This document shows, in pieces, positions 7,054 to 45,518 of a stretch of DNA of 64,000 nucleotides. Each line of letters opens with the position of its first letter. Position 1 is the stretch's first letter. The stretch is from NCBI RefSeq assembly GCF_000771225.1, contig NZ_JDTZ01000002.1, positions 124,001 to 188,000 on the forward strand. Direction: 5' to 3'. Origin of the DNA: Bifidobacterium pseudolongum subsp. pseudolongum DSM 20099 (GTDB taxonomy: Bacteria > Actinomycetota > Actinomycetes > Actinomycetales > Bifidobacteriaceae). A model generated the notes under the pieces. That model searched no databases and was not told the origin of the DNA. It saw only the letters and a list, made by a program, of their open reading frames with translations. Position numbers and translations under genes: made by a program.

Positions 7054-8337
7054 TCAGTGGCGCGGCCACCACGGGCGCAGCGGGTACACGTCGGTCCCGG
7101 TCCTGTCCGGCTTCACGCACAGGAACTGGTGGATCTGGATGTTGTTGTGCTCGAAGTTGTATGCGCAGCCGGCCATGTACAGGCCCCACAGGCGTGCCTT
7201 CGGCTCGCCGACCATCGCGGTGGCCTGGCTCCAGTGGGCCGAAAGGTTCTCGTTCCACCGGTGCAGTGTGAGCGCATAATGCTGCCGCAGGTTCTCTTGG
7301 TTGATGACCTCGAAGCCGGTGTCCTGGATCGTCATCTCGATTTCGGCCGGGCTCGACAGCTCGCCGTCGGGGAAGATGTAGCGGTCGATGAACTCGCCCG
7401 CCTTCTTGCCCTGATGCGAATTGCACCGCGTGATCTGGTGGTTGAGCAGCATGGCGCCGGGCTTGAGCTTGTTGTAGATCTCCTGGAAATAGGCCGGGTA
7501 ATGCTTGTAGCCCACATGCTCCATCATGCCGAGCGAGCAGATGCCGTCGAAATCGCCTTCCGGCACATCACGGTAATCCATGAGACGCACTTCGGCGAGG
7601 TCCTGCAGGCCCTCTTGGCGGATCCAACGCTGGGCCCACTCCGCCTGCTCTTCGGACAGCGTGACGCCGAGCGTATGGATGCCACGCTTCGCGGCCTCGA
7701 TGGCCATCGACCCCCAACCGCACCCGATGTCAAGCAGACGGTCGCCCGGTTTGAGCGCGAGCTTGTCTAGCACCAGGTCGAGCTTCGCTTTCTGCGCGGC
7801 TTCGAGCGAGGTGTCGGGCGAATCGAACACGGCGCATGTGTAGGTCATGGAAGGCCCAAGGAACAGCGCGTAGAAATCGTTCGACTGGTCGTAATGGTAG
7901 CTGACCGTGGCCGCGTCGCCTTTGCGCGTATGCGGCAGCAGGCCTTCGCTCATGCGGCGCATGCGCCCCGGGCCTTCGATCGCCGGCGGTTCGGGCCTGC
8001 GGATGCCATGCGAGGCGACCGATGCGAGCGCCTTCGCCAATTGCGCCGGGTTCGGCGTGCGCAGATACGGCTTGACGTCCACGAGCTTGCCGAACAACGC
8101 GTATGGATCGCCCGGGTCGAGTTGCGGCGAATCGATGTCCCCCTGCAAGTAGGCGCGGGCCAGACCGAGTTCGCCCGGCGCGTTGATGAGATAATAGATC
8201 GCCCGCGAATTCCTGATGACCAAGGTCACCGGCGCGTCTTCGCTGCCATAGGTGGAGCCGTCAAAGGCCTTGACATATATCGGGGCTCCCGGCTTCACAA
8301 ACAGCTCCACCATCTGCCCCACACTCATAGCCACCAT
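7054..8337 (-). CDS. cfa: Cyclopropane-fatty-acyl-phospholipid synthase
   Basis: A 427-residue SAM-dependent enzyme that converts unsaturated acyl chains of membrane phospholipids into cyclopropane chains. It shows the family core YDQSNDFYALFLGPSMTYTC, followed by the SAM site LLDIGCGWGSMAIEAA and the helix AEWAQRWIRQEGL. Later come GMMEHVGYKHYPAYFQ, GAMLLNHQITR and IDRYIFPDGEL, all typical of Cfa. The N-terminal 110 residues form the usual lipid-binding domain. A ribosome site, AAAGGGGC, lies before the start. It follows metK, its source of SAM, but a strong hairpin at 8360-8388 separates them. Confidence 0.95.
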   Translation of the reverse strand: MVAMSVGQMVELFVKPGAPIYVKAFDGSTYGSEDAPVTLVIRNSRAIYYLINAPGELGLARAYLQGDIDSPQLDPGDPYALFGKLVDVKPYLRTPNPAQLAKALASVASHGIRRPEPPAIEGPGRMRRMSEGLLPHTRKGDAATVSYHYDQSNDFYALFLGPSMTYTCAVFDSPDTSLEAAQKAKLDLVLDKLALKPGDRLLDIGCGWGSMAIEAAKRGIHTLGVTLSEEQAEWAQRWIRQEGLQDLAEVRLMDYRDVPEGDFDGICSLGMMEHVGYKHYPAYFQEIYNKLKPGAMLLNHQITRCNSHQGKKAGEFIDRYIFPDGELSSPAEIEMTIQDTGFEVINQENLRQHYALTLHRWNENLSAHWSQATAMVGEPKARLWGLYMAGCAYNFEHNNIQIHQFLCVKPDRTGTDVYPLRPWWPRH

Positions 8338-8359
8338 ATCTGCCCCTTTCCATTGCGGT

Positions 8360-8388
8360 CCGGCCGGCCATGAGTCATGGCCGGCCGG
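8360..8388 (-). terminator. GC-rich hairpin after metK
   Basis: An 11-bp stem CCGGCCGGCCA/TGGCCGGCCGG with a 7-base loop TGAGTCA, lying between the metK stop and the cfa start. The whole 29-base stretch is a near-perfect odd palindrome. No T-run follows on the minus strand, so termination efficiency is uncertain. Confidence 0.65.
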
Positions 8389-8394
8389 TCAAGC

Positions 8395-9621
8395 TCAGGC
8401 CTGGTCTTCGGCAATCGCGGCCTTGAGCTGTGCGACTTTGTTGGTGCGCTCCCAAGTGAAGCCGTCTTCCTCACGGCCGAAATGGCCGTAGGCAGCCGTC
8501 TTGGCGTAGATCGGGCGCAGCAGGTCGAGTTCGTCCACAATCGCCGCAGGGCGCAGGTCGAACACCCGGCGCACCGCACACTGGATCTGGTCGCGCGTCA
8601 CACCGTCCATCTCGGTGCCATACGTCTCCACATTAATGCTCACCGGTTCGGCTACGCCGATTGCGTACGCAACCTGCACTTCAACTTTGTGTGCAAGGCC
8701 GGCGGCCACGATGTTCTTGGCCACCCACCGCGCGGCGTAGGCGGCCGAACGGTCCACCTTGCTCGGGTCCTTGCCGGAGAACGCGCCGCCGCCATGGTGC
8801 GCGGCGCCACCGTAGGTGTCGACGATGATCTTGCGGCCGGTCAAGCCGGCGTCGGCGGCCGGACCTCCCATGATGAACGATCCGGTCGGGTTCACGAGCA
8901 CACGGTAGTCGTCGTGGCGCACGCGGTCGCCCAGCACCTCGTCGAGCACAGGCATGATGACATGCTCATTGAGCTGTTCGCGCAGCCAGTCCTGACGCAC
9001 GGCGGGGTCATGCTGGGTCGACACGAGCACGGTGTCCACACGCCGGGGCACATCATGCTCGTCGTATTCGATCGTCACCTGCGTCTTGCCGTCTGGGCGC
9101 AGCGAAGGCACCTCGCCGCTCTTGCGCACTTTGGTCAGCCGCTGGGCGAGTTTGTGCGCCAAATGGATCGGCAGGGGCATGAGCACATCGGTCTCGTCAC
9201 TGGCATAGCCGAACATCACGCCCTGATCGCCGGCGCCCTGCGCCTCATACCGCTCTTCGCGCGAGGCCGCGGTCTCCTCGTCACGCGAAAGGCGCGACAC
9301 GCCCTGGTTGATCTCCGGGCTCTGCTCGGTGATTGCCACAAGCACGCCGCATGAGTCGGCGTCAAGGCCGACTTCGGAGCTCGTATAGCCAATGTCACGC
9401 ACCACGGAACGCACGATGTGCTGGATGTCGCTGTAGCCTTCGCTCGTCACTTCGCCGAAGACAAAGAACTGGCCGGTTGTGGCCGAAGTCTCCACCGCCA
9501 CATGCGCATGCGGGTCCTGCCGCAGCATGTCGTCGAGGATCGCGTCGGAAATCTGGTCGCAGACCTTGTCCGGGTGGCCTTCGGTCACCGATTCCGCGGA
9601 AATCAATTTGAGCTCTGCCAT
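8395..9621 (-). CDS. metK: S-adenosylmethionine synthetase
   Basis: A 408-residue MAT enzyme that makes SAM from methionine and ATP. Signatures: [19 protein letters not shown] at the N-terminus (catalytic His, metal Asp), the hexapeptide [12 protein letters not shown], and the P-loop-like [19 protein letters not shown]. Full length for the family. A hairpin at 9717-9769 lies between it and rpoZ upstream, and another follows its stop, so it may form its own unit. No SAM riboswitch consensus was recognised in the 160-base upstream gap. A ribosome site, AGGGGAGAC, precedes the ATG. Confidence 0.97.
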
Positions 9622-36338: not shown

Positions 36339-37547
36339 TTACAGACCCAGAACCTGCTTCTTCTTGAGGTCAAATTCCTCCTGGGTGAGGATTCCGGCGT
36401 CAAGCAGCTCCTTGAGGCTCTTCAGTGTCTCCATCTGTTCCGCTACGGACATCGCGGGAGCCGGCGCAGGTTGCGACGCGGCTTGGGCGACTACCGGCTG
36501 TGCATCCGCTGCAGCGGCCATCGCATTCGCCGGATTCATCTGCTGGCCCGGCATCGCCCCGGTCATCGGGTTGACCCCCTGAGCGAAGCCGACCCCGAGC
36601 ATCATGCCGCCCATGTCGCCGAATCCGTTGTCTTGCACGCCTTGGGCGATTTTCTGCTGGGCGGCGATGTTCGACGCCTGCTGCGAGATGTTCTCGTACG
36701 CCGTCACATTCATGCGGTTCGACGAGTACTGCTTGACGAGTTCGCGCGATTCCGGCGTGAACTCGATGCTTTCGATGCCGATGCCCGCCAGATGGATGCC
36801 GAATCGTGACTCCCATGTACCCGCGTTTGTGGGGTCCTCGCTGATCGCGAGCGCGATTGCGTTCGCTTGGCTCGGCAACGCGGAGATACGGTATTCGTTG
36901 CTCAGCGAGTTGAGCGCGACCGAGAACGACTGCATGAATTCACTGAGCAGCTGCGACTTCGTTTTGGGGTCGTCGAAACTGATGTAGTCCACGTTCGGCG
37001 GTACGAATTGCCGGATGAACGCGGTCGGGTTCGTAATGCGCAACGACATCATGCCTCGTGCGCGAATGTCGAGATCGGTGTCGTAGAACTTGTCGTGGTA
37101 CATGAGCGGGGCCGGCGTGCCGAACTTGAGGCCGCGGATCTCGCGGAGGTTCACGAAGGCGACGCGCTTGTTCGCCACTGGTTCGCCGCCGTACTTGAAG
37201 CGTTCGCCGATCTGCCCGAAGATGGATTTGCCGATGCCGTCGCCCGCGAACACACTTTCGGTGCCGCCGGTGCGGTATTCGTACCCGCCGGACTCGGTGA
37301 TGATGCTTTCGATGCCCGACTGGTCGAAGATGAACGCGGCCGTGTTCTCAGGGACATAGATGCGCGACCCGTTGGAGATGACGGCATCGGAATGCTTGGT
37401 GTTCGACCCACGTCCTTGATTCGTTTCCTGATAGACACCCGGCATGAGTGCTACATGCTCATCGAATTGGCCGACCGTGATGATGTCGAGCCACTGATCG
37501 GCGAAGGTGCCGCCCAATGCGCCCGCGAATGCTTTGATCAATGCCAT
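36339..37547 (-). CDS. SPFH/Band-7 protein with C-terminal SHOCT domain
   Basis: A 402-residue protein of the virion-core-protein-like SPFH group (as B. subtilis YdjI). It begins MALIKAFAGALGGTFADQW. The SPFH region runs through about residue 240 (GSRIYVPENTAAFIFDQSG, FGTPAPLMYHDKFYDTDLDI, GIHLAGIGIESIEFTPESRE). A Gly/Met/Ala/Gln/Pro-rich linker follows (about 300-370), then a SHOCT domain (LKELLDAGILTQEEFDLKKK). Such proteins are thought to build membrane-associated scaffolds and often sit with zinc-ribbon partners. Here a GRAM-zinc-ribbon gene lies 37 bases upstream in the same direction, so an operon is likely. There is no N-terminal transmembrane segment. Confidence 0.82.
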   Translation of the reverse strand: MALIKAFAGALGGTFADQWLDIITVGQFDEHVALMPGVYQETNQGRGSNTKHSDAVISNGSRIYVPENTAAFIFDQSGIESIITESGGYEYRTGGTESVFAGDGIGKSIFGQIGERFKYGGEPVANKRVAFVNLREIRGLKFGTPAPLMYHDKFYDTDLDIRARGMMSLRITNPTAFIRQFVPPNVDYISFDDPKTKSQLLSEFMQSFSVALNSLSNEYRISALPSQANAIALAISEDPTNAGTWESRFGIHLAGIGIESIEFTPESRELVKQYSSNRMNVTAYENISQQASNIAAQQKIAQGVQDNGFGDMGGMMLGVGFAQGVNPMTGAMPGQQMNPANAMAAAADAQPVVAQAASQPAPAPAMSVAEQMETLKSLKELLDAGILTQEEFDLKKKQVLGL

Positions 37548-37584
37548 GGCTGCCTACTTCCCTCCATGCCTTACGGTGCGATAG

Positions 37585-38163
37585 TTACAGCTGACGCGAA
37601 GCAGTGCAATACTCACAGATGACTGTCTTCCCATGCCATCCAGTGAGTGTGGCGCCGCAGCCCGGGCATGATATACTCACTTTTTCAGCCACGACTTGCT
37701 GTGGGACTATTTTCTTGCTGAATGCTGTTGTGAACTGATTGGTGACACTACTCAATGCATTTGCAACGTCTGAGACCAATGTCTGCTTGGAACCGACCAA
37801 AGGGTTGGGGTCTCCTGTGATTTCCGCATTGAGCATGTTGACAAACGGTGCAAAATCTTCATATCGAGGGTCACTGAAGTGAATGACCCCATTCGACAAG
37901 TATGCTTTGCATTTATACCACGTATTATCTCGACTGTTCTTCGGCAGCTGCGTCACTTCAATGTGATCTATCGAGGAAAGTGGATATGAATACGAGTATT
38001 CCTCATCGGCACGGAACACATGAAGCTTCGCATAAGACAACACAAGACGTTTCGTTGTGATATAGACATGACCGGACTCGGAGATGCTCTTTATTTTATC
38101 ATCCCAAAATAAGCCATAGTCACCAATGATGGTTTCCCCATATTCGAGCTTAATTTCGTTCAT
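37585..38163 (-). CDS. GRAM/PH-like domain protein with C-terminal zinc ribbon
   Basis: A 192-residue cytosolic protein. Residues about 5-110 look like a GRAM/bacterial-PH beta domain (GHVYITTKRLVLSYAKLHVF, YPLSSIDHIEVTQL, KAYLSNGVIHFSDPRYEDF), a fold that binds lipids or membrane proteins. The C-terminus has a CPGCG...CEYC zinc-ribbon pair. I chose the ATG at 38163 (MNEIKLEYGE) because AGGAG lies six bases before it. It is followed closely by the SPFH gene, and the two probably act together at the membrane. Codon and base use are visibly more AT-rich than in the purine genes. The assignment is by pattern only. Confidence 0.65.
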   Translation of the reverse strand: MNEIKLEYGETIIGDYGLFWDDKIKSISESGHVYITTKRLVLSYAKLHVFRADEEYSYSYPLSSIDHIEVTQLPKNSRDNTWYKCKAYLSNGVIHFSDPRYEDFAPFVNMLNAEITGDPNPLVGSKQTLVSDVANALSSVTNQFTTAFSKKIVPQQVVAEKVSISCPGCGATLTGWHGKTVICEYCTASRQL

Positions 38164-38291
38164 GCTACTCCTCTCCATGCGCCTCGTTGCACATTGTTGC
38201 CTTCATCACCTAGCGGACCTTCACCACATGCTGTCACCTCTTCTGAAATCCGTGGGACACTCGGTGCGAATTCTGCAAAGAAGACGAAGGA

Positions 38292-38333
38292 TCAAGTCAG
38301 CGATTACACATTCGGACACAATCGCTGACTTGA
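38292..38333 (-). terminator. Hairpin between the repeat-bearing membrane gene and the GRAM gene
   Basis: Perfect 14-base arms TCAAGTCAGCGATT/AATCGCTGACTTGA around a 14-base loop, 20 bases past the stop of the gene to its right. Probably ends that transcript, leaving GRAM-SPFH with its own promoter. Confidence 0.7.
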
Positions 38334-38352
38334 CCGATCATTAGATGTCCTA

Positions 38353-39909
38353 TCAGGACTTGAATGCCGAAGCTTTCTTCATGTACCTATCCACATACTT
38401 CTGAATATCGAAATCCTTGCTGAAGAATTCGCTGTTAATATCTAGCCACGCGCTATAGGTATCAGATCGCATATCAAACCAATTCTCATAGAAGTCAGAA
38501 CGCGCGTCATACCAGTTCTCGTAGCATTCACTATGCACGTCATACCAAGCGCTGTAATCCTCATCTTCAGCTTTCTTGGCGTCGTCAGAGCGTTCAAGCA
38601 CACCCTCGTAATACTTGTCATTCATTTCCTCAAAGGCATCCTCATAGATGGAGTCCTCCAGATTTTTGAATTGATCTTCATACACATAGTCCTGATATTC
38701 TTCCATCACTGCATCGATCTCGTTGGAAGAAGCATTCTGCATGTTCTGAGCGATGTAGGTATAGAATTTACCGCTATTCTCGCCGATGCGCTGATACAGA
38801 TCAGCAGTACGGCTGTCTACATATGCATACCAGTCAGCGATTGCCTGCTTGTTCTGGTTGTACGAAGCATATGTATCTCCAACTTTCTCGAATGTGGCAT
38901 TGAGCTCATTATTGATGTCTGAAATCGCCGAATCAACATCCATGCCGATTGCAGTCAAAGCCTCACCTGCAGCGCCAGGCGCCTTGATATTATCCGTGGA
39001 TTGCGTGGTGTCATTGGCTGTGGATTCCGAAGACGATGGAGAGGGACTCTCCGACGGCTCTTCAGAACTTGAGGAGGATGGTTTGCTGCTTGAAGATGGT
39101 GAGGAGGAGGAAGATGACGAAGGCGTTTTTGCCGCAGTCGTTGTCATGGCCTTCGGCATATTCACACAGCCGAAGATGATGGCAAGCACTGATATACCTA
39201 CAGCTACACCGGAAAGGATGCGGTTCGCAAGATTCTTGTCAAGCATGAGCGAGGCATACAGCGAGAATCCTGAAAAGGCTAGTGAGACGATGCCGAGCAC
39301 CCATACCAGCCATGCCCCGGTCTTGGGAGTGAGCACAATAAGCAGAATCAGCGCAATCACAGATACAGCCAATGCGCCGATGGCCAGATAGAGCACCCAT
39401 GATGCGGGCTTCTTTGGTGTAGGTGTACCACCGCTTGCAGATTGGGCATTCCACGTCTGTTGAGTCAGCTGCGGCTGGGTTGCGTTCATCTGCTGCATCA
39501 TGAGCTCCCGGTTCAGTTCACCAAAGAAGACCATGGATTCCATCTGAAGGCTCGCTGTTGGCTGTCCTTGCGGAACGAACTGAACAACAGAGCCTGTCTG
39601 CACTCCCGGAACAACATGTACCATATACAAAACACCGTCGTTACGCGAAGCAACAGATGCGGTCTTAGCAACGTCATCGGCCATGATCAGCCCAAACGAC
39701 TGACTATGCATGAGCGCGTTCTTTACAGCTTGATAGACGTCTTCCACCGACTGAGGAAATTGCTGCGCGGGAATCTGCGGCAAAGACTGTGTTGCAGTGT
39801 CCGGCGTAGATGCGGCGCCAGTAGCCATTGCGACTGGTTGCTCAGCTGTGTCGAATGGCGTTTTTGTTGTGGGTCGCTCCGGCATTGGAGTGGGATCTGG
39901 AGTGGACAT
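38353..39909 (-). CDS. Membrane protein with Ser-rich linker and 11-residue aromatic repeats
   Basis: A 518-residue protein of unknown function. A Pro/Thr-rich N-terminus is followed by a globular part (about 50-135, SVEDVYQAVKNALMHSQSF, GVLYMVHVVPGVQTGSVVQF). Then come three hydrophobic segments (about 175-260: ASWVLYLAIGALAVSVIALI, the next starting GAWLVWVLGIVSLAFSG, and ILSGVAVGISVLAIIFG). A Ser/Pro-only linker (about 275-320) leads to an acidic helical tail. Near the C-terminus four 11-residue units repeat: SAWYDVHSECY, ENWYDARSDFY, ENWFDMRSDTY, SAWLDINSEFF. The layout suggests a cell-surface or membrane-sensor protein. It is AT-rich compared with core genes. Confidence 0.7.
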   Translation of the reverse strand: MSTPDPTPMPERPTTKTPFDTAEQPVAMATGAASTPDTATQSLPQIPAQQFPQSVEDVYQAVKNALMHSQSFGLIMADDVAKTASVASRNDGVLYMVHVVPGVQTGSVVQFVPQGQPTASLQMESMVFFGELNRELMMQQMNATQPQLTQQTWNAQSASGGTPTPKKPASWVLYLAIGALAVSVIALILLIVLTPKTGAWLVWVLGIVSLAFSGFSLYASLMLDKNLANRILSGVAVGISVLAIIFGCVNMPKAMTTTAAKTPSSSSSSSPSSSSKPSSSSSEEPSESPSPSSSESTANDTTQSTDNIKAPGAAGEALTAIGMDVDSAISDINNELNATFEKVGDTYASYNQNKQAIADWYAYVDSRTADLYQRIGENSGKFYTYIAQNMQNASSNEIDAVMEEYQDYVYEDQFKNLEDSIYEDAFEEMNDKYYEGVLERSDDAKKAEDEDYSAWYDVHSECYENWYDARSDFYENWFDMRSDTYSAWLDINSEFFSKDFDIQKYVDRYMKKASAFKS

Positions 39910-39947
39910 TTGACCGTTCCCTTCTTCATACTTTCTTCACATATAAC

Positions 39948-40008
39948 CGACAAAGCATTACAGGGTGATGCAGCAACACATCGCCGCATCACCCTGTAAT
40001 GCCTGTCG
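39948..40008 (-). terminator. Long hairpin after the 47-residue small gene
   Basis: 17-base perfect arms (39955-39971 and 39986-40002), extended by CGACA/TGTCG outside a few unpaired bases. It begins directly after the TGA of the small frame at 40009, on the minus strand, and is followed by TTTGTCGG. Confidence 0.75.
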
Positions 40009-40152
40009 TCAGTCGGCCTGTGTGGAAGAACCGTCAGGTCTTCCTTCGTGGTCGTCGACGCAGTGCACCTCGCCTTGTTGCTCCGGTTCTTGCACCGCAT
40101 CCTCGAACGCTCGTACACCGCGCAGTATCATGCCTGCCAATTGCGTAAACAT
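40009..40152 (-). CDS. Small 47-residue protein of unknown function
   Basis: On the minus strand, AGAGGAG sits six bases before an ATG at 40152 that opens 47 codons: MFTQLAGMILRGVRAFEDAV, then an acidic hydrophilic tail with CVDDHEG, ending SSTQAD. A long hairpin begins right after the stop. A good ribosome site, a short frame and an adjacent terminator together make a real small gene likely. The first 20 residues could form an amphipathic helix and the rest looks disordered. It precedes the repeat-bearing membrane gene in the same direction. It could be a membrane-active peptide or regulator. No family was recognised. Confidence 0.6.
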   Translation of the reverse strand: MFTQLAGMILRGVRAFEDAVQEPEQQGEVHCVDDHEGRPDGSSTQAD

Positions 40153-40401
40153 GACTGCACTCCTCTCTGACGAGACATTCCCTTGTACGCAACCGACCTT
40201 CGGCTACACAGCGAGCGGATGGCACCGCTCACAGGAACTCGTCATTAAGGGGCATGTTTTATTCGCGAATCAGCACTCCTTCCCCTACGCGATCCAGTGC
40301 GAAACAGTTGTAATGACGAGCGTTTCACGCTAGAACCATTCTCGAATCTTTGATTTATAGTGTCAATGACATAACATGATATAAATCTGAAATAAATGTG
40401 C
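40153..40401. other. Divergent AT-rich control region
   Basis: About 250 bases between the small minus-strand gene and the plus-strand XRE gene. It contains an inverted pair CTCGTCATTA (near 40238) and TAATGACGAG (40311-40320) about 63 bases apart, and an AT-rich stretch after 40340. Probably holds both promoters and regulator sites. Confidence 0.4.
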
Positions 40402-40414
40402 TATGTTTTATACC

Positions 40415-41113
40415 ATGGATACTATAAACGAGGCGAGTGCACAGGCGTGGAGAACCCGCCTGCGGGCATGTATGGACGAACGGGGGCTCACCCAGCTGGG
40501 ATTGGTCAGCGCGCTCAACCGCCAGTACCTCACGAAATACCACCAAAAAGACGTCAGCCGCTGGCTCAACACCGGCAATCGCACCACGAGCGGCGTCATC
40601 GGCTTCCCCAAGTACGAAACGATGTCCATTCTCGCGGATTTCTTCGGTGTGGATGTGGGGTATCTGACCGGCGAGACCGATGAGCGGAGTTTTAACCTGC
40701 AGCACGCATGCGATTACCTGAGTCTTGATGGATCTGCGATCAGCGCACTGCGCAAATGGATTCGCAAAGGCACAGGCAGCACCACAGATGACGGTAAAAA
40801 CCCCACTATGCGCAGCTACCGCGCGGACACACTTAACGAACTTTTCTCTTCCCCCGAATTTGGAACCATGGCAGCAAAACTGCTCACCTTGCATGAAATG
40901 TCCGCAATCTGGCAAACCAATCCCGAACGGTTCAGTTCGCTTATGGCCTCGCTCGCTTCAGACAGCGAACTTCCCGACGACCTGACATTTCAACTCATTC
41001 TCGGCGCGTTCTATGGCATGGCGAGCGAGTCATTCTCCGCGCTTCTAAGAAGTGCTTACCCAATTCCAAACGAACAGCAGTTCGAACAACTCATCATCGA
41101 ACATGATTCCTGA
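40415..41113 (+). CDS. XRE-family transcription regulator
   Basis: A 232-residue protein with an N-terminal helix-turn-helix (about 10-75: AWRTRLRACMDERGLTQLGL, KDVSRWLNTGN, FPKYETMSILADFFGVDVGY). The C-terminal part is unlike known effector domains. No Shine-Dalgarno sequence precedes the ATG at 40415 or the in-frame ATG at 40403. TATGTT at 40402-40407 is placed as a -10 so that RNA would begin at 40415, which points to a leaderless message. The AT-rich upstream region and the divergent small gene suggest local regulation. The next gene in the same direction begins 186 bases on. Confidence 0.75.
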   Translation: MDTINEASAQAWRTRLRACMDERGLTQLGLVSALNRQYLTKYHQKDVSRWLNTGNRTTSGVIGFPKYETMSILADFFGVDVGYLTGETDERSFNLQHACDYLSLDGSAISALRKWIRKGTGSTTDDGKNPTMRSYRADTLNELFSSPEFGTMAAKLLTLHEMSAIWQTNPERFSSLMASLASDSELPDDLTFQLILGAFYGMASESFSALLRSAYPIPNEQQFEQLIIEHDS

Positions 41114-41298: not shown

Positions 41299-42540
41299 AT
41301 GGCGCATGAGATCGAAGTTTACGGCGATGATGACGGATTCATGCTTCTTGGCGATTCCGCAGATATTCGACAGGCTTTAGCCGAACTTCAGATTGAAGAG
41401 AATCACACTATCGATATCGGCAAAGCCGCGATATTGAAAAATGCACATCGTGCTGTGAAGTTGTTCGGGAAAATGCAAAAACGTTCAGGACGCTGGGTGA
41501 AATTCACCAAGGAATCTGCGGAAAAAGCTCAGAAATACGGCTTGCTGCGCAATAAATCAACTGGCAATTTCATGGGAGTAATAGGCCAAGCGGCCAAAGG
41601 TGGCATCAAGGGTAACGTACAGTTTGAGACAATGGTAGAAGTATTCACACCCGACAAGGTAGCGAATATCGAGATGCTCATGCTGACGCTTGCCCTAGAG
41701 CAGGCCATGAAAGAGATGACTGACTACCTCAAGCAGATTGATGCTAAAGTCGATCAGGTATTGCGACAGCAAAAGAACGCCGAACTGGCAAAATTCCTCA
41801 GCGTTGCAGGTTTGGCCACGGAGGCCGAAAAAGAATTGCAACACATAGGCAGCCTTTCAGACGCAACTTGGGACCAGTTGAGCAACAGTGCCCAAACGGT
41901 GAATGAAGTGCAGCAGTATTCACTGCTTCAGCTCAAAGACATCACAGAGAAGATTAATTCTGCAGCGGATACCCGATCCGCCAAAGACGTATTGACAACC
42001 GTTCGTCCACGCATCGGGGAATGGCTTGCCGTCGCCGCAGATTGTCTTCGCATGCGGGATCGAATAGACATGCTTAAGGTGCAGCGGTTTATCGATATGG
42101 GCATCGAACCAGATCTCTTGAGCAAGCATCGGTTCGTCATCACAGAAAACCGTCGCGCACGCTATCGATCACTAACCGATACCACTGCCAACTTGCAGCA
42201 AGCCATCAAAAACGTCGTGCAAGGCAAAGATGATACCATGCGCGTTATTCTCCTGCCAATGGATGCGCCTGTTGTGGTGCGTGAAGGCAATGCGATCGCG
42301 AGCGCCCTCGCTCGATTCGACAAGGCGCTAGGAAAGGAATATGCGGTTCCGCGCTTCAACGAAAAACAGTGGGATCAGGCAATGGGTGAGGTCGGACAGG
42401 CCATTGCGGACGGCACGGGGCAACTCATGCACTACGCCGAGGGGATTTTTGGCGAGGGCACCAAGCAGATTGGGAATGTCGCCAACGAGGCTGGAGATCA
42501 GATCAAAAAAGTATTTGGGAATTTCCCGAAATTGTGGTGA
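41299..42540 (+). CDS. Helical cytosolic protein of unknown function
   Basis: A 413-residue protein I do not recognise. I chose the ATG at 41299 (MAHEIEVYGDDDGFMLLG) because GAGAGAGGACC lies before it; the frame extends to 41140 without support. It appears mostly helical, with a likely coiled coil about 120-165 (ALEQAMKEMTDYLKQIDAKV) and no clear membrane segment. The C-terminus is Gly-rich and amphipathic (GEGTKQIGNVANEAGDQIKK). It is AT-rich like its neighbours and lies just after the XRE regulator on the same strand. A bidirectional hairpin ends it. Phage-related or membrane-stress roles are possible but unsupported. Confidence 0.6.
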   Translation: MAHEIEVYGDDDGFMLLGDSADIRQALAELQIEENHTIDIGKAAILKNAHRAVKLFGKMQKRSGRWVKFTKESAEKAQKYGLLRNKSTGNFMGVIGQAAKGGIKGNVQFETMVEVFTPDKVANIEMLMLTLALEQAMKEMTDYLKQIDAKVDQVLRQQKNAELAKFLSVAGLATEAEKELQHIGSLSDATWDQLSNSAQTVNEVQQYSLLQLKDITEKINSAADTRSAKDVLTTVRPRIGEWLAVAADCLRMRDRIDMLKVQRFIDMGIEPDLLSKHRFVITENRRARYRSLTDTTANLQQAIKNVVQGKDDTMRVILLPMDAPVVVREGNAIASALARFDKALGKEYAVPRFNEKQWDQAMGEVGQAIADGTGQLMHYAEGIFGEGTKQIGNVANEAGDQIKKVFGNFPKLW

Positions 42541-42609
42541 CAGACGCTCGTCTTGTCTCCTTTCCGACGCTGGCGCAGGCGCAGCCCAGCTCACATAAGC
42601 ACATGAATA

Positions 42610-42659
42610 CGGCCTTTCGTGGAATCCATCACACCGTCAATGGATCTCACGAAAGGCCG
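42610..42659. terminator. Bidirectional hairpin between convergent genes
   Basis: 20-base arms (42610-42629 and 42640-42659) match at 18 positions around a 10-base loop. It lies between the stops of the unknown helical gene and the DUF4230-like gene and can end both. Confidence 0.8.
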
Positions 42660-42684
42660 CGATATGCACGTTCCATCACCGTAT

Positions 42685-43302
42685 TCAGTCCTCCTCAGCC
42701 TGTTTGAATATGAAGTTGAGCTTCGCATCCGGACTGACGCTCCGTACGATGGATGTATAGAATGATTCCGCTTGATCCTCGAGTATGTCGCGGTTCTTCT
42801 CGACATACTCGCTCCTCGCCTTGTCGGACAGAATCTCGTTGATCATATTGGCCGTATCGATCTGCGGGGTGCCAAAACTCAATGCACCATTCTGATCGAC
42901 CACCGTACGGTATTCAGGGTGGTCATACCCGATGAACTTGAATTCGGGAATCGTGATGTCGTATGTATTATCACTGGCTGGCTCAATAACAACGTCTTTG
43001 CCGTCGAATCCGAGTTTGGCATCAAACGAATATTGGATGAACTGCGCGCGCTCGGTACCAGGAATCTCCATATTGAAGAAATGGCTTTTGTTTTCTTTTG
43101 ATTTTATTCCAGTGATGCCGAGACGAAGCAAAGACACCTCTTTAGTCTGTTCCATCGCATGAATCACCTGCGTGTCAGTGGATTTAGAACTGCTTGAGAG
43201 GACTGCCGGAATGCCCGGAACCGCCCCATACAAGACGGCGACAATGGCTGCACCTACTACAACAGCGCCAATACACGTCGTGATCTTCTTGATCACACCC
43301 AT
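42685..43302 (-). CDS. DUF4230-like single-span membrane protein
   Basis: A 205-residue protein. It begins MGVIKKITTCIGAVVVGAAI, an N-terminal membrane anchor, followed by an extracytoplasmic domain. The domain has FIQYSFDAKLGFDGKDVVI, then YDITIPEFKFIGYDHPE, and a helical end (DILEDQAESFYTSIVRSVSP) that resembles DUF4230 proteins of Gram-positives. The function of that family is unknown. A GGAGG site is nine bases before the ATG at 43302, so I prefer it to the ATG at 43308. A minus-strand -10 (TATGAT, 43484-43489) would give a leader of about 175 bases. Confidence 0.6.
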   Translation of the reverse strand: MGVIKKITTCIGAVVVGAAIVAVLYGAVPGIPAVLSSSSKSTDTQVIHAMEQTKEVSLLRLGITGIKSKENKSHFFNMEIPGTERAQFIQYSFDAKLGFDGKDVVIEPASDNTYDITIPEFKFIGYDHPEYRTVVDQNGALSFGTPQIDTANMINEILSDKARSEYVEKNRDILEDQAESFYTSIVRSVSPDAKLNFIFKQAEED

Positions 43303-43618
43303 ATGCATGGACCTCCATCCAATATGGAATGATGCGGCACCGCCCACCGCATATCATGGATACCCACATCTGCTGTGCCGTATCCATCCGCGGCAAGGTC
43401 CATTCGACCGCTTCATCCTTTCTTCTACCTGAACACGATGAAGGCCCCTCTCTGCATGCTCCATCGCCATTGATTGCGATGGTATCATACTTCGCTCGGC
43501 CTCATGCCCCACAGGGAGATTGGCGAGACAATGCACGCAAGCACATCCAATGGTGTCCTCACCCAGCACCGAACCTATAAGCGCACTGTGCAGAATCGAA
43601 GTTTCATTAGCGATCCAT
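43303..43618. other. Intergenic region with candidate promoter and palindrome
   Basis: About 316 bases between the GTPase stop and the DUF4230-like start. On the minus strand TATGAT (43484-43489) could be a -10, with the palindrome CCATCGC/GCGATGG (43461-43482) directly downstream, where an operator could lie. No gene is seen here. Confidence 0.4.
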
Positions 43619-44842
43619 TCAATGCTTGCGGTTGAGGAACGCGGCCTTGACCAGTTCGATGATCATCTGCCGCATGTCTTTGCCGCCACCGGCTTGGGAC
43701 GCTTGCGCGATGCCGCTGACTTTTCCGAGGAATCCTTCTCCGAACTGCTCTTCCATCAGATGCTGCACCCAGCCGATGTCGCGCACGCTCCGCTGGCCGG
43801 TATACACCTGTTCGAACGCGATCACCGCGCCCTCGCCGAGCGCCGCGATGATGCTCGCCGCCACAATCGCATTGAGCACACTGGCGGCGATATTGATGCC
43901 TGGAATCGCCTTGATCGCACTGATCGCCGAATGAGCCACCACGCCCGCAGTGCCCACCTGCACAATCGAATCGAGGAATTGCTTGGAATCCTCATCGCGG
44001 TCAATCTCATACAGGCGCGCCAATCCGTTGAGCTCGGCGAGCTCGAGCGGCGAGAGCACGAGCGAATCAGCAATCGGAATCGGCACTGCGCCCACGGTCG
44101 CACCGGCCGCCACGCTCGCCCCAATCAGGCCTTGCGCAAGCACGCGCTTGCGGGTGAGTTTGAACTGCATCAGGTCGTGCGCGCCGCCCTGCATGCCTTC
44201 GGGCATCGCGCGCATCGTCGCGTCGATCAGGTCGGTGATGCCTTCCGGCGGCGCGAACGCCGTCTCGTTGATCACGAATGTCTGCGCGACGACCGGCACG
44301 ATCGCGCGCAGGTTGCGTTCCACACGCTGCCCGTGGAACGCCTGCCGCACCATCTCGATGTTGCGCGCGCGATCTGCCTGCGAATACGACTTGGTGATGA
44401 CGGCGATGATCGGCACAGACTTCCACATCGCGATCGAGTTGGAGAAGTTGCGGATCGTCTCTGGGAACAGCTTCGCCGCCGTGCCATCCACACAGAACCA
44501 AATCACGTTGATGCGGCTGTTCTCATTGCCCTCTTGCGCACTCGACCGCGACCATTTGCGTACGGCGTGGATTGCGCGCAGACTCTTGATCGGCGAAGGT
44601 TCGAATCCGATGGAGTCGATGACACGGAACGGCACCGATGGACTTGCGTAGATGGCAAGCTCCTCGGTTGTGCCACGCGTGCCGAAACTGGTCTTGGCGA
44701 TGTCATCGCCGATCACGGCGTTGATGAGCGTCGATTTGCCCACGCCGGAATTCCCCAGCACGAGCACGTTGCCTTTATGGACCGGCTGCTGGGGTGCAGG
44801 GGCGGGCTGCACGTCGATTACATGGCCGTTGTCGTATGTCAT
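43619..44842 (-). CDS. DUF697-type GTPase
   Basis: A 407-residue P-loop GTPase. G1 is LGNSGVGKSTLINAVIG, the G2 region is TSFGTRGTTEE, G3 is RVIDSIGFEPS, and the G4 position reads TKSYSQAD, a departure from NKxD. The C-terminal half has Gly/Ala/Ile-rich helices (VAAGATVGAVPIPIADSLVL, INIAASVLNAIVAASIIAAL) of the DUF697/YcjF kind that contact membranes. I chose the ATG at 44842 (MTYDNGHVID). TATGAT ends six bases before it with no ribosome site, so the mRNA is probably leaderless. The role is unknown; relatives act in membrane or stress responses. Confidence 0.75.
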   Translation of the reverse strand: MTYDNGHVIDVQPAPAPQQPVHKGNVLVLGNSGVGKSTLINAVIGDDIAKTSFGTRGTTEELAIYASPSVPFRVIDSIGFEPSPIKSLRAIHAVRKWSRSSAQEGNENSRINVIWFCVDGTAAKLFPETIRNFSNSIAMWKSVPIIAVITKSYSQADRARNIEMVRQAFHGQRVERNLRAIVPVVAQTFVINETAFAPPEGITDLIDATMRAMPEGMQGGAHDLMQFKLTRKRVLAQGLIGASVAAGATVGAVPIPIADSLVLSPLELAELNGLARLYEIDRDEDSKQFLDSIVQVGTAGVVAHSAISAIKAIPGINIAASVLNAIVAASIIAALGEGAVIAFEQVYTGQRSVRDIGWVQHLMEEQFGEGFLGKVSGIAQASQAGGGKDMRQMIIELVKAAFLNRKH

Positions 44843-44933
44843 GCGGTTATCATAGGCACATCGCATACGGCTGCGCCCTTGGCGTTTTCACGTCAAGGGC
44901 GCAGCATTCGGTGGAGGGGCAGTGCCCCACAGG

Positions 44934-45518
44934 TCACTTGTCTTGTGAAGAGTCCGAGCTGTCTTCGTCCGAACTGGTTCGGCCGGCTGTGCGATCGGCT
45001 TCCTTCTGCCGCTCCTCGGCCTGCTTCTTCGCCTCCTCGGCGCTGCGCGGAATGCCGGCGAGCTCAGAGCCCGTGGCTTCCTTCATGCGCTTGTCGACTT
45101 TGTCGATGACCTCGTCGAAGTACTTCTCCTGTTCGGGGGTGAGCTTCGAATTGCTCACGGCGTCGAACTGCGCCATCATGTCGTCGAAGCCCGCGAGCCA
45201 ATCGGTATACTCCTTGGCCTTCGATGCCGGCATGCCGTCCTGGCTGTTGAGCATCTCCGCGAAATCGGCGTACTTCATCATGAAGTCCTCGTAATTGCGG
45301 ATGACCTCCATCGGATCGGTCGTGGACGGCGTGACCGTGGTGGATTCCGAGGGAGACGGCGACGCCTCCGCCGCCACCGTCTCGGCCGAAGCCTGCGGCT
45401 CAGCGCCACGCTGCGGCAGATGGAACACGAACACCGCCACACATGCCGCCACGACGGCCACGACAACACCAATGATGCCGATGATCCACGCCGTTTTCTT
45501 GGATTGCGCTCGCTGCAT
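44934..45518 (-). CDS. Membrane-anchored acidic protein of unknown function
   Basis: A 194-residue protein. A short basic N-terminus and one hydrophobic segment (about 10-33, AWIIGIIGVVVAVVAACVAV) anchor it, followed by a Ser/Thr/Pro-rich spacer (about 45-68). A helical domain (about 70-165, MEVIRNYEDFMMKYADFAEM) and a charged tail (ERQKEADRTAGRTSSDEDSS) complete it. The domain resembles a small family of actinobacterial and Gram-positive surface proteins without a known function. GGGAG precedes the ATG. It lies upstream of the GTPase in the same direction, 91 bases apart. Confidence 0.65.
   Translation of the reverse strand: MQRAQSKKTAWIIGIIGVVVAVVAACVAVFVFHLPQRGAEPQASAETVAAEASPSPSESTTVTPSTTDPMEVIRNYEDFMMKYADFAEMLNSQDGMPASKAKEYTDWLAGFDDMMAQFDAVSNSKLTPEQEKYFDEVIDKVDKRMKEATGSELAGIPRSAEEAKKQAEERQKEADRTAGRTSSDEDSSDSSQDK

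Follow-up and report, generated by a model that had tools for sequence, protein, structure and literature searches.

Gene content of the locus

The stretch of DNA analyzed here (the window; 64,000 nucleotides) includes an interval, assigned by sequence and synteny to the space between purL and purF, in which four minus-strand open reading frames follow one another (Table 1), as the original prediction had it. They code for an SPFH protein ending in a SHOCT domain (P1), a protein that joins a PH-fold domain to a zinc ribbon (P2), a large membrane protein (P3), and a very small protein (P4). Relatives of P1 with 97-99% identity are present in Bifidobacterium pseudolongum subsp. globosum, which assigns the window to B. 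pseudolongum or a very close relative, and a search of P1-P4 against NCBIfam returned nothing over the cut-off. The divergent regulator-like gene has no Pfam match.

The set probably includes more than these four genes. The genes of 41299-45518 are syntenic with the cassette in relatives of B. pseudolongum (where genes were called with a simple caller combined with six-frame profile searches), and the gene set of the site probably reaches to about 45.5 kb. The four-gene module proposed at the outset is thus made up of real reading frames and was probably drawn too narrowly. Among the more distal genes, the protein encoded from 42685 was suspected by eye to be a relative of DUF4230, which hhalign did not support (probability 3.6%).

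Table 1. Genes, domains, and regulatory features of the locus, in positions of the window
Feature	Positions	Strand	Basis
P1, SPFH (Band_7_1) protein with C-terminal SHOCT, 402 aa	36339..37547	-	Pfam
P2, PH-fold domain with C-terminal four-Cys zinc ribbon, 192 aa	37585..38163	-	AF2, Foldseek, conservation
Hairpin between P3 and P2	38290..38335	-	terminator-like scan, fold
P3, membrane protein, 518 aa	38353..39909	-	ORF, AF2
P3, exported helical "AR" domain (predicted), aa 312-518, 11-residue aromatic (hendecad) repeats	38356..38976	-	AF2, periodicity
P3, disordered Ser-rich linker, aa 251-302	39004..39159	-	pLDDT below 50
P3, three TM helices, aa 170-249	39163..39402	-	AF2 helices 170-193, 199-223, 227-249
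P3, N-terminal domain, aa 45-145, predicted cytoplasmic, BamC/KA1-like alpha-beta4-alpha	39475..39777	-	AF2, Foldseek
P4, 47-aa protein with amphipathic N-terminal helix MFTQLAGMILRGVRAFEDAV	40009..40152	-	motif search
Putative promoter of P4-P1 with palindromic operator-like box TGTCATTGACA (40361-40371)	40338..40371	-	
Divergent regulator-like gene, XRE-like by eye; also adjoins the cassette in other bifidobacteria	40403..41113	+	
413-aa protein without assigned function, probable extended member	41299..42540	+	same place in strain 2093B, B. criceti
One-TM protein, 207 aa, probable extended member	42685..43308	-	same synteny
GTPase (MMR_HSR1), 415 aa, probable extended member	43619..44866	-	Pfam 1.8e-9, same synteny
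One-TM protein with partial DUF6591, 194 aa, probable extended member	44934..45518	-	Pfam PF20234 3.2e-13

The soluble components P1 and P2

P1 exceeds the Pfam cut-offs both for Band_7_1 (PF13421; 44.9 bits against a cut-off of 24, E 1.4e-11) and, at residues 374-400, for SHOCT (PF09851; 32.7 bits against a cut-off of 27, E 5.5e-8), which bears out its assignment to the scaffold family. It has no membrane helix, and its SPFH sequence matched nothing in the PDB.

Translation of P2 is better placed at 38163 than at 38178 (which would give 197 aa) because its homologues begin at the former position and GGAGAGGAG precedes it. The protein had been described as a GRAM domain with a zinc ribbon. At the level of sequence profiles, the GRAM match (PF02893) reaches 14.3 bits, below the cut-off of 23.6, and the match to zinc_ribbon_6 is likewise below its cut-off. 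The AF2 model, in contrast, built with 47 homologues (pLDDT 81), is a seven-strand barrel capped by a C-terminal helix, that is, the PH superfold, and Foldseek relates it to the PH domains of Exo84, BTK, and Vps36 with E values from 2e-5, the best, to 1e-3. Five of the 47 homologues match bPH_1 and five match bPH_3. Cysteines 166, 169, 183, and 186, which form the two CxxC knuckles of the ribbon, are invariant in all 47. Hence, the general character of the protein stands, with a PH-superfold domain in place of a GRAM domain recognizable by its profile. In one bifidobacterial sub-lineage (L075, L076, L078, L080, and L082), P2 has lost the PH domain and persists as the zinc-ribbon part of about 78-90 aa, so the PH domain is dispensable.

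Architecture of P3 and P4

P3 had been described as a membrane protein carrying a Ser linker and repeated aromatic residues, and each of these points was confirmed: three TM helices are predicted, a stretch of 45 linker residues holds 23 Ser, and aromatic residues recur at a lag of 11 in 9 pairs against 3.1 expected, a number reached in 0 of 5000 shuffles. Its fold is an AF2 prediction from 21 sequences, with a pLDDT of 76 overall, mostly above 90 in the N-terminal domain and mostly about 90-98 in the AR domain. No part of P3, the AR domain included, matches a Pfam family over the cut-off, and its sequence finds chance matches alone in the PDB. For the N-terminal domain, Foldseek returns BamC, Flpp3, and KA1 with a probability of 1.0 but weak E values of 0.007-0.04. 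KA1 domains bind anionic lipids; therefore, a contact of the P3 N-terminal domain with lipid or protein is possible.

Prediction supports an N-in/C-out topology for P3, on which the odd number of TM helices, a basic second loop that is conserved among homologues, and the lipoprotein and soluble versions of its domains agree. Other bifidobacteria, Coriobacteriia, and Clostridia have the aromatic-repeat domain in the form of lipoproteins, which argues for its placement outside the cell, and stand-alone relatives of the N-terminal domain (112-119 aa) have no membrane helix, which supports a cytoplasmic location for the latter.

P4 is as tiny and amphipathic as predicted, with a hydrophobic moment of 0.54 (shuffle p 0.0006), and has homologues in other species. 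Its motif was found in 16 ORFs among 1.58 million residues, which reduce to 11 distinct loci when duplicates are removed; 10 of these are SPFH cassettes (nine of the ten besides its own locus). The remaining locus (L088) combines the same regulator with an aromatic-repeat membrane protein.

Candidate regulatory elements

A box between P4 and the divergent regulator has as its core the palindrome TGTCATTGACA, which overlaps the -35 element TTGACA. The box is conserved in B. pseudolongum, B. merycicum, B. pongonis, B. erythrocebi, B. saguini, and B. colobi, and a weaker form is present in another genus, at the L088 locus; a 17-base version occurs just once in the genome. In three loci (L100, L101, and L106), a change in one arm is matched in the other, giving the compensated form CGTCATTGACG. 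Going by these sequence features, the divergent regulator probably controls expression at this box. The hairpin between P3 and P2 might act as an attenuator or partial terminator; the region as a whole folds no more than z -1.1 below shuffles, and unrelated hairpins occupy the same position in two other loci (L090 and L104), with none in several others.

An ancient P2-P1 core in two phyla

A search with SPFH only, covering one genome per species across 84,980 species, gave 80 loci, a sampling that is incomplete. They come from Bifidobacterium, Gardnerella, Olsenella, Collinsella, Trueperella, Streptococcus, Bacillaceae, lactobacilli, and Clostridia. A P2 homologue lies directly upstream of the SPFH gene in 70 of the 80, in Bacillota as well as Actinomycetota, and ends about 10 to 110 bases before it. 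This figure comprises 64 loci by a strict automatic count and six more (L103, L131, L152, L156, L162, and L167) in which the stop-to-stop SPFH frame opens upstream of the start, which had put them outside that count. As P2 played no part in selecting the loci, P2-P1 is an old two-gene cassette, the ancient core common to the two phyla. A literature search on the gene pair found nothing. The original prediction of a new module is accordingly too broad for this pair, and it is P3 that constitutes the unfamiliar part.

Across the 80 loci, the genes that recur around P2-P1 code for an HTH protein, a membrane Ser/Thr kinase, DUF6591, DUF4839, aromatic-repeat lipoproteins, a small TM protein (c15), and DUF4230. 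A metagenome-assembled genome from Clostridia (L152, 4591-10711) has in one row the HTH, kinase, P2, P1, DUF4839-type, aromatic-repeat lipoprotein, and c15 TM genes. In another locus, an N-terminal SHOCT domain is fused to DUF6591 just downstream of SPFH (L115, 3482-4480), an architecture hinting at a SHOCT-based pairing.

Association of P3 with the SPFH gene

Among 121 genomes of the family, 13 carry strong matches (E < 1e-25) to the N-terminal domain of P3, 15 matches in total, and all 15 adjoin an SPFH gene; the hypergeometric p of 2e-14 for this co-occurrence is overstated, the genomes being related. Full-length P3 is rare in the same set, leaving out matches with E above about 1e-8, which are mostly short Ser-rich/TM or N-terminal-domain matches. 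In the loci examined, the N-terminal domain was found in Bifidobacteriaceae alone. Weaker relatives (E 1e-4 to 1e-16) occur away from the SPFH gene. Co-occurrence elsewhere, the absence of which would have refuted the original prediction, was thus found both for P2 with P1 and for the P3 N-terminal domain with SPFH, and the idea that the four-gene neighborhood is a real conserved module is well supported.

Stand-alone relatives of the N-terminal domain lie near 6000-7000 in L215-L219, in family genomes without an SPFH cassette. One genome (G093) has an N-terminal domain that runs into DNA-glycosylase-like sequence (L222, 6069-6968) and a second SPFH copy in pieces (L089, about 7976-8621), apparently the remains of a decayed cassette.

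The aromatic-repeat domain is also encoded without SPFH nearby (L088, L185-L187, and L223). Loci L185-L187, from another class of Actinomycetota, carry genes for the kinase, HTH protein, c15, and an aromatic-repeat lipoprotein, and the Clostridia locus L223 has an aromatic-repeat lipoprotein without kinase, HTH, or c15; hence, the association of this domain with SPFH is not obligatory. In L186, it is fused to DUF6591.

Exchange of P2, P3, and the outer domain

Comparison of strains points to a stable frame with replaceable contents. With respect to strain LMG 11569, P1 is 99% and P2 95% identical, as is the membrane part of P3 (95%); the N-terminal domain of P3 is 86% identical and its outer domain 36%. 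With respect to strain 2093B, P1 (97%) and the flanking genes (93-99%) are again close, whereas P2 is 32% and P3 22% identical; in 2093B, therefore, the two were replaced together within the stable frame. In other loci, the outer part of P3 is DUF6591 (most bifidobacterial versions) or a PASTA-like stretch with DUF4839; a PASTA domain was suspected by eye in the latter and has no Pfam match, hence the qualified name. A literature search on DUF6591 and DUF4839 found no mention of either in the papers covered.

Such replacement, together with the low GC content of P2 (45.6%) and P3 (50%) against 62.5% for the window, raises the question of whether P3, and perhaps P2, might merely be carried along by a recombination hotspot in the purL-purF interval, that is, a swapped surface or cell-wall gene unrelated to SPFH function; the occurrence of the outer domains as independent lipoproteins would agree with this. 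We consider it improbable, as the cassette is found with its order kept at a second genomic site adjoining a kinase (L075, L078, L080, and L082), a similar set stands together in Clostridia, and strong matches to the P3 N-terminal domain never stray from SPFH. An origin in mobile elements was also considered and set aside: P3 was not found in phage records, and P1 has remote, partial matches on two plasmids.

These same observations on phages and plasmids tell against a role in defense or competition, in which the variable outer domain would recognize, or protect against, phages or bacteriocins. Strain-level exchange and low GC are usual in genes of that kind, and in PADLOC the kinase that accompanies the cassette in other species is similar to PD-T4-6 kinases, as any Ser/Thr kinase might be. 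A PADLOC scan of P1, P2, and P3, however, assigned no convincing family to any of them (P3 had two matches at an E of about 0.005), and no toxin-like domain is present; we regard a defensive function as very unlikely.

PspA and kinase as potential partners

In Bacillus subtilis, the SPFH protein YdjI is positioned by the membrane proteins YdjG and YdjH and in turn recruits PspA; how YdjG/YdjH sense a stimulus is stated there to be unclear (PMC8581546). The statement in the original prediction that PspA is missing holds for the cluster and fails for the genome, since another contig encodes PspA (PF04012, 128.9 bits; G000:C20:7915-8568). It adjoins a gene for a 288-aa membrane protein (G000:C20:7876-9443; L172, 7876-9443), outside the window. 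A TPM domain suspected by eye in this neighbor has no Pfam match at E 0.01, and remote similarity is possible; within the cluster itself, Pfam likewise gave no match to TPM.

Of the 121 family genomes, six encode PspA and five of those carry SPFH (p 2e-4), and the membrane Ser/Thr kinase is found in 12, eight of them with SPFH (p 1e-5); because these p-values ignore phylogeny, the pattern is to be taken as a lead rather than a result. The PspA carriers resemble one clade, and the associations of both PspA and kinase are confounded by shared ancestry. No genome has PspA and the kinase together (0/121). PspA is absent from 12 of 17 close SPFH carriers, and SPFH relatives without PspA often carry the kinase.

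One reading of these data is a membrane repair system of the Psp/Ydj kind that has been split in two: P1 would recruit the PspA encoded on contig C20, P3 would replace YdjG/YdjH, and the variable outer domain would be incidental. The Ydj precedent (PMC8581546), the five genomes in which PspA goes with SPFH (G000, G038, G048, G071, and G075), and the membrane-protein partner next to the PspA gene all fit this reading, against which stand the 12 SPFH carriers that lack PspA, the PspA neighbor without a TPM match, the SHOCT rather than zinc-ribbon end of P1, and a genome (G026) with PspA and no full SPFH gene. On balance, we hold it to be doubtful.

A proposed membrane-tethered SPFH assembly

Taking these findings together, we lean, with some reserve, toward a membrane-tethered SPFH assembly that resembles the Ydj system in its working and in which P3 serves as an anchor with an exchangeable outer sensor. 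Such a reading fits work on PSP partners, in which proteins with band-7 and SHOCT-like domains are treated as builders of membrane-associated complexes (PMC11237479). Several points weigh against it: the shared ancestry behind the PspA and kinase associations, the aromatic-repeat domain in loci that have no SPFH gene nearby, the loss of the PH domain from P2 in one sub-lineage, the published SHOCT that did not oligomerize (PMC3581485), and the weak Foldseek E values of the P3 N-terminal domain. The oligomerization, docking, sensing, regulation, and output of the assembly are what we infer. P1 would oligomerize on the inner face of the membrane, and P2 would dock on it via the zinc ribbon and C-terminal region, with its PH-fold domain touching the membrane or a protein. 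P3 would span the membrane as the anchor and turn its BamC/KA1-like domain toward the SPFH assembly; its exchangeable outer part (in this locus the aromatic hendecad-repeat domain) would contact or sense the cell envelope. The amphipathic helix of P4 might lie on the membrane, and the divergent regulator would act at the TGTCATTGACA box. The output partner may differ by lineage: for the B. pseudolongum group it would be the PspA whose gene lies outside the locus, and for many other lineages the membrane Ser/Thr kinase with the HTH protein. On the whole, the module probably senses or answers trouble at the cell surface.

More tentatively, Gram-positive SPFH assemblies might constitute a general platform with a fixed P2-P1 core, swapped outer domains (aromatic-repeat, DUF6591, and DUF4839), and interchangeable outputs (PspA or kinase). 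For the question of SPFH specificity, a shared two-gene core with strain-swapped outer domains amounts to a natural experiment, in which one scaffold is combined with different presumed sensors. A context is thereby also given to DUF6591, DUF4839, and an undescribed aromatic-repeat domain.

Comparison with known systems

The closest parallel is pspA-ydjGHI, with which the locus shares a soluble SPFH protein, a zinc-ribbon component, and membrane partners in one cluster, as well as PspA in the same genome. The cluster here, however, has neither PspA nor a TPM protein; the SPFH protein of pspA-ydjGHI ends in a zinc ribbon, whereas P1 ends in SHOCT and the ribbon is on the separate P2; the anchor P3 has unrelated domains; and P4 and the divergent regulator are additions. 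Since the cluster is without PspA and TPM and its SPFH protein ends in SHOCT, we do not count the locus as a member of that system. The flotillin-NfeD system (FloT/YuaF) shares the idea of an SPFH scaffold, but P1 is without a membrane anchor, and no NfeD-like partner was seen among the neighbors examined. In related species, DUF6591 and DUF4839, known from envelope proteins, make up the outer part of P3, where the window has an aromatic-repeat domain outside any Pfam family. Finally, the passages on SPFH-SHOCT proteins in an earlier paper (PMC3581485) deal with protein architecture; the P2-P1 gene pair, P3, and P4 do not appear in them, and the one SHOCT described there as tested had no oligomerization behavior. 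In those passages, the combination of PF13421 with PF09851 is the commonest SHOCT association, and P1 is identical to it in make-up.
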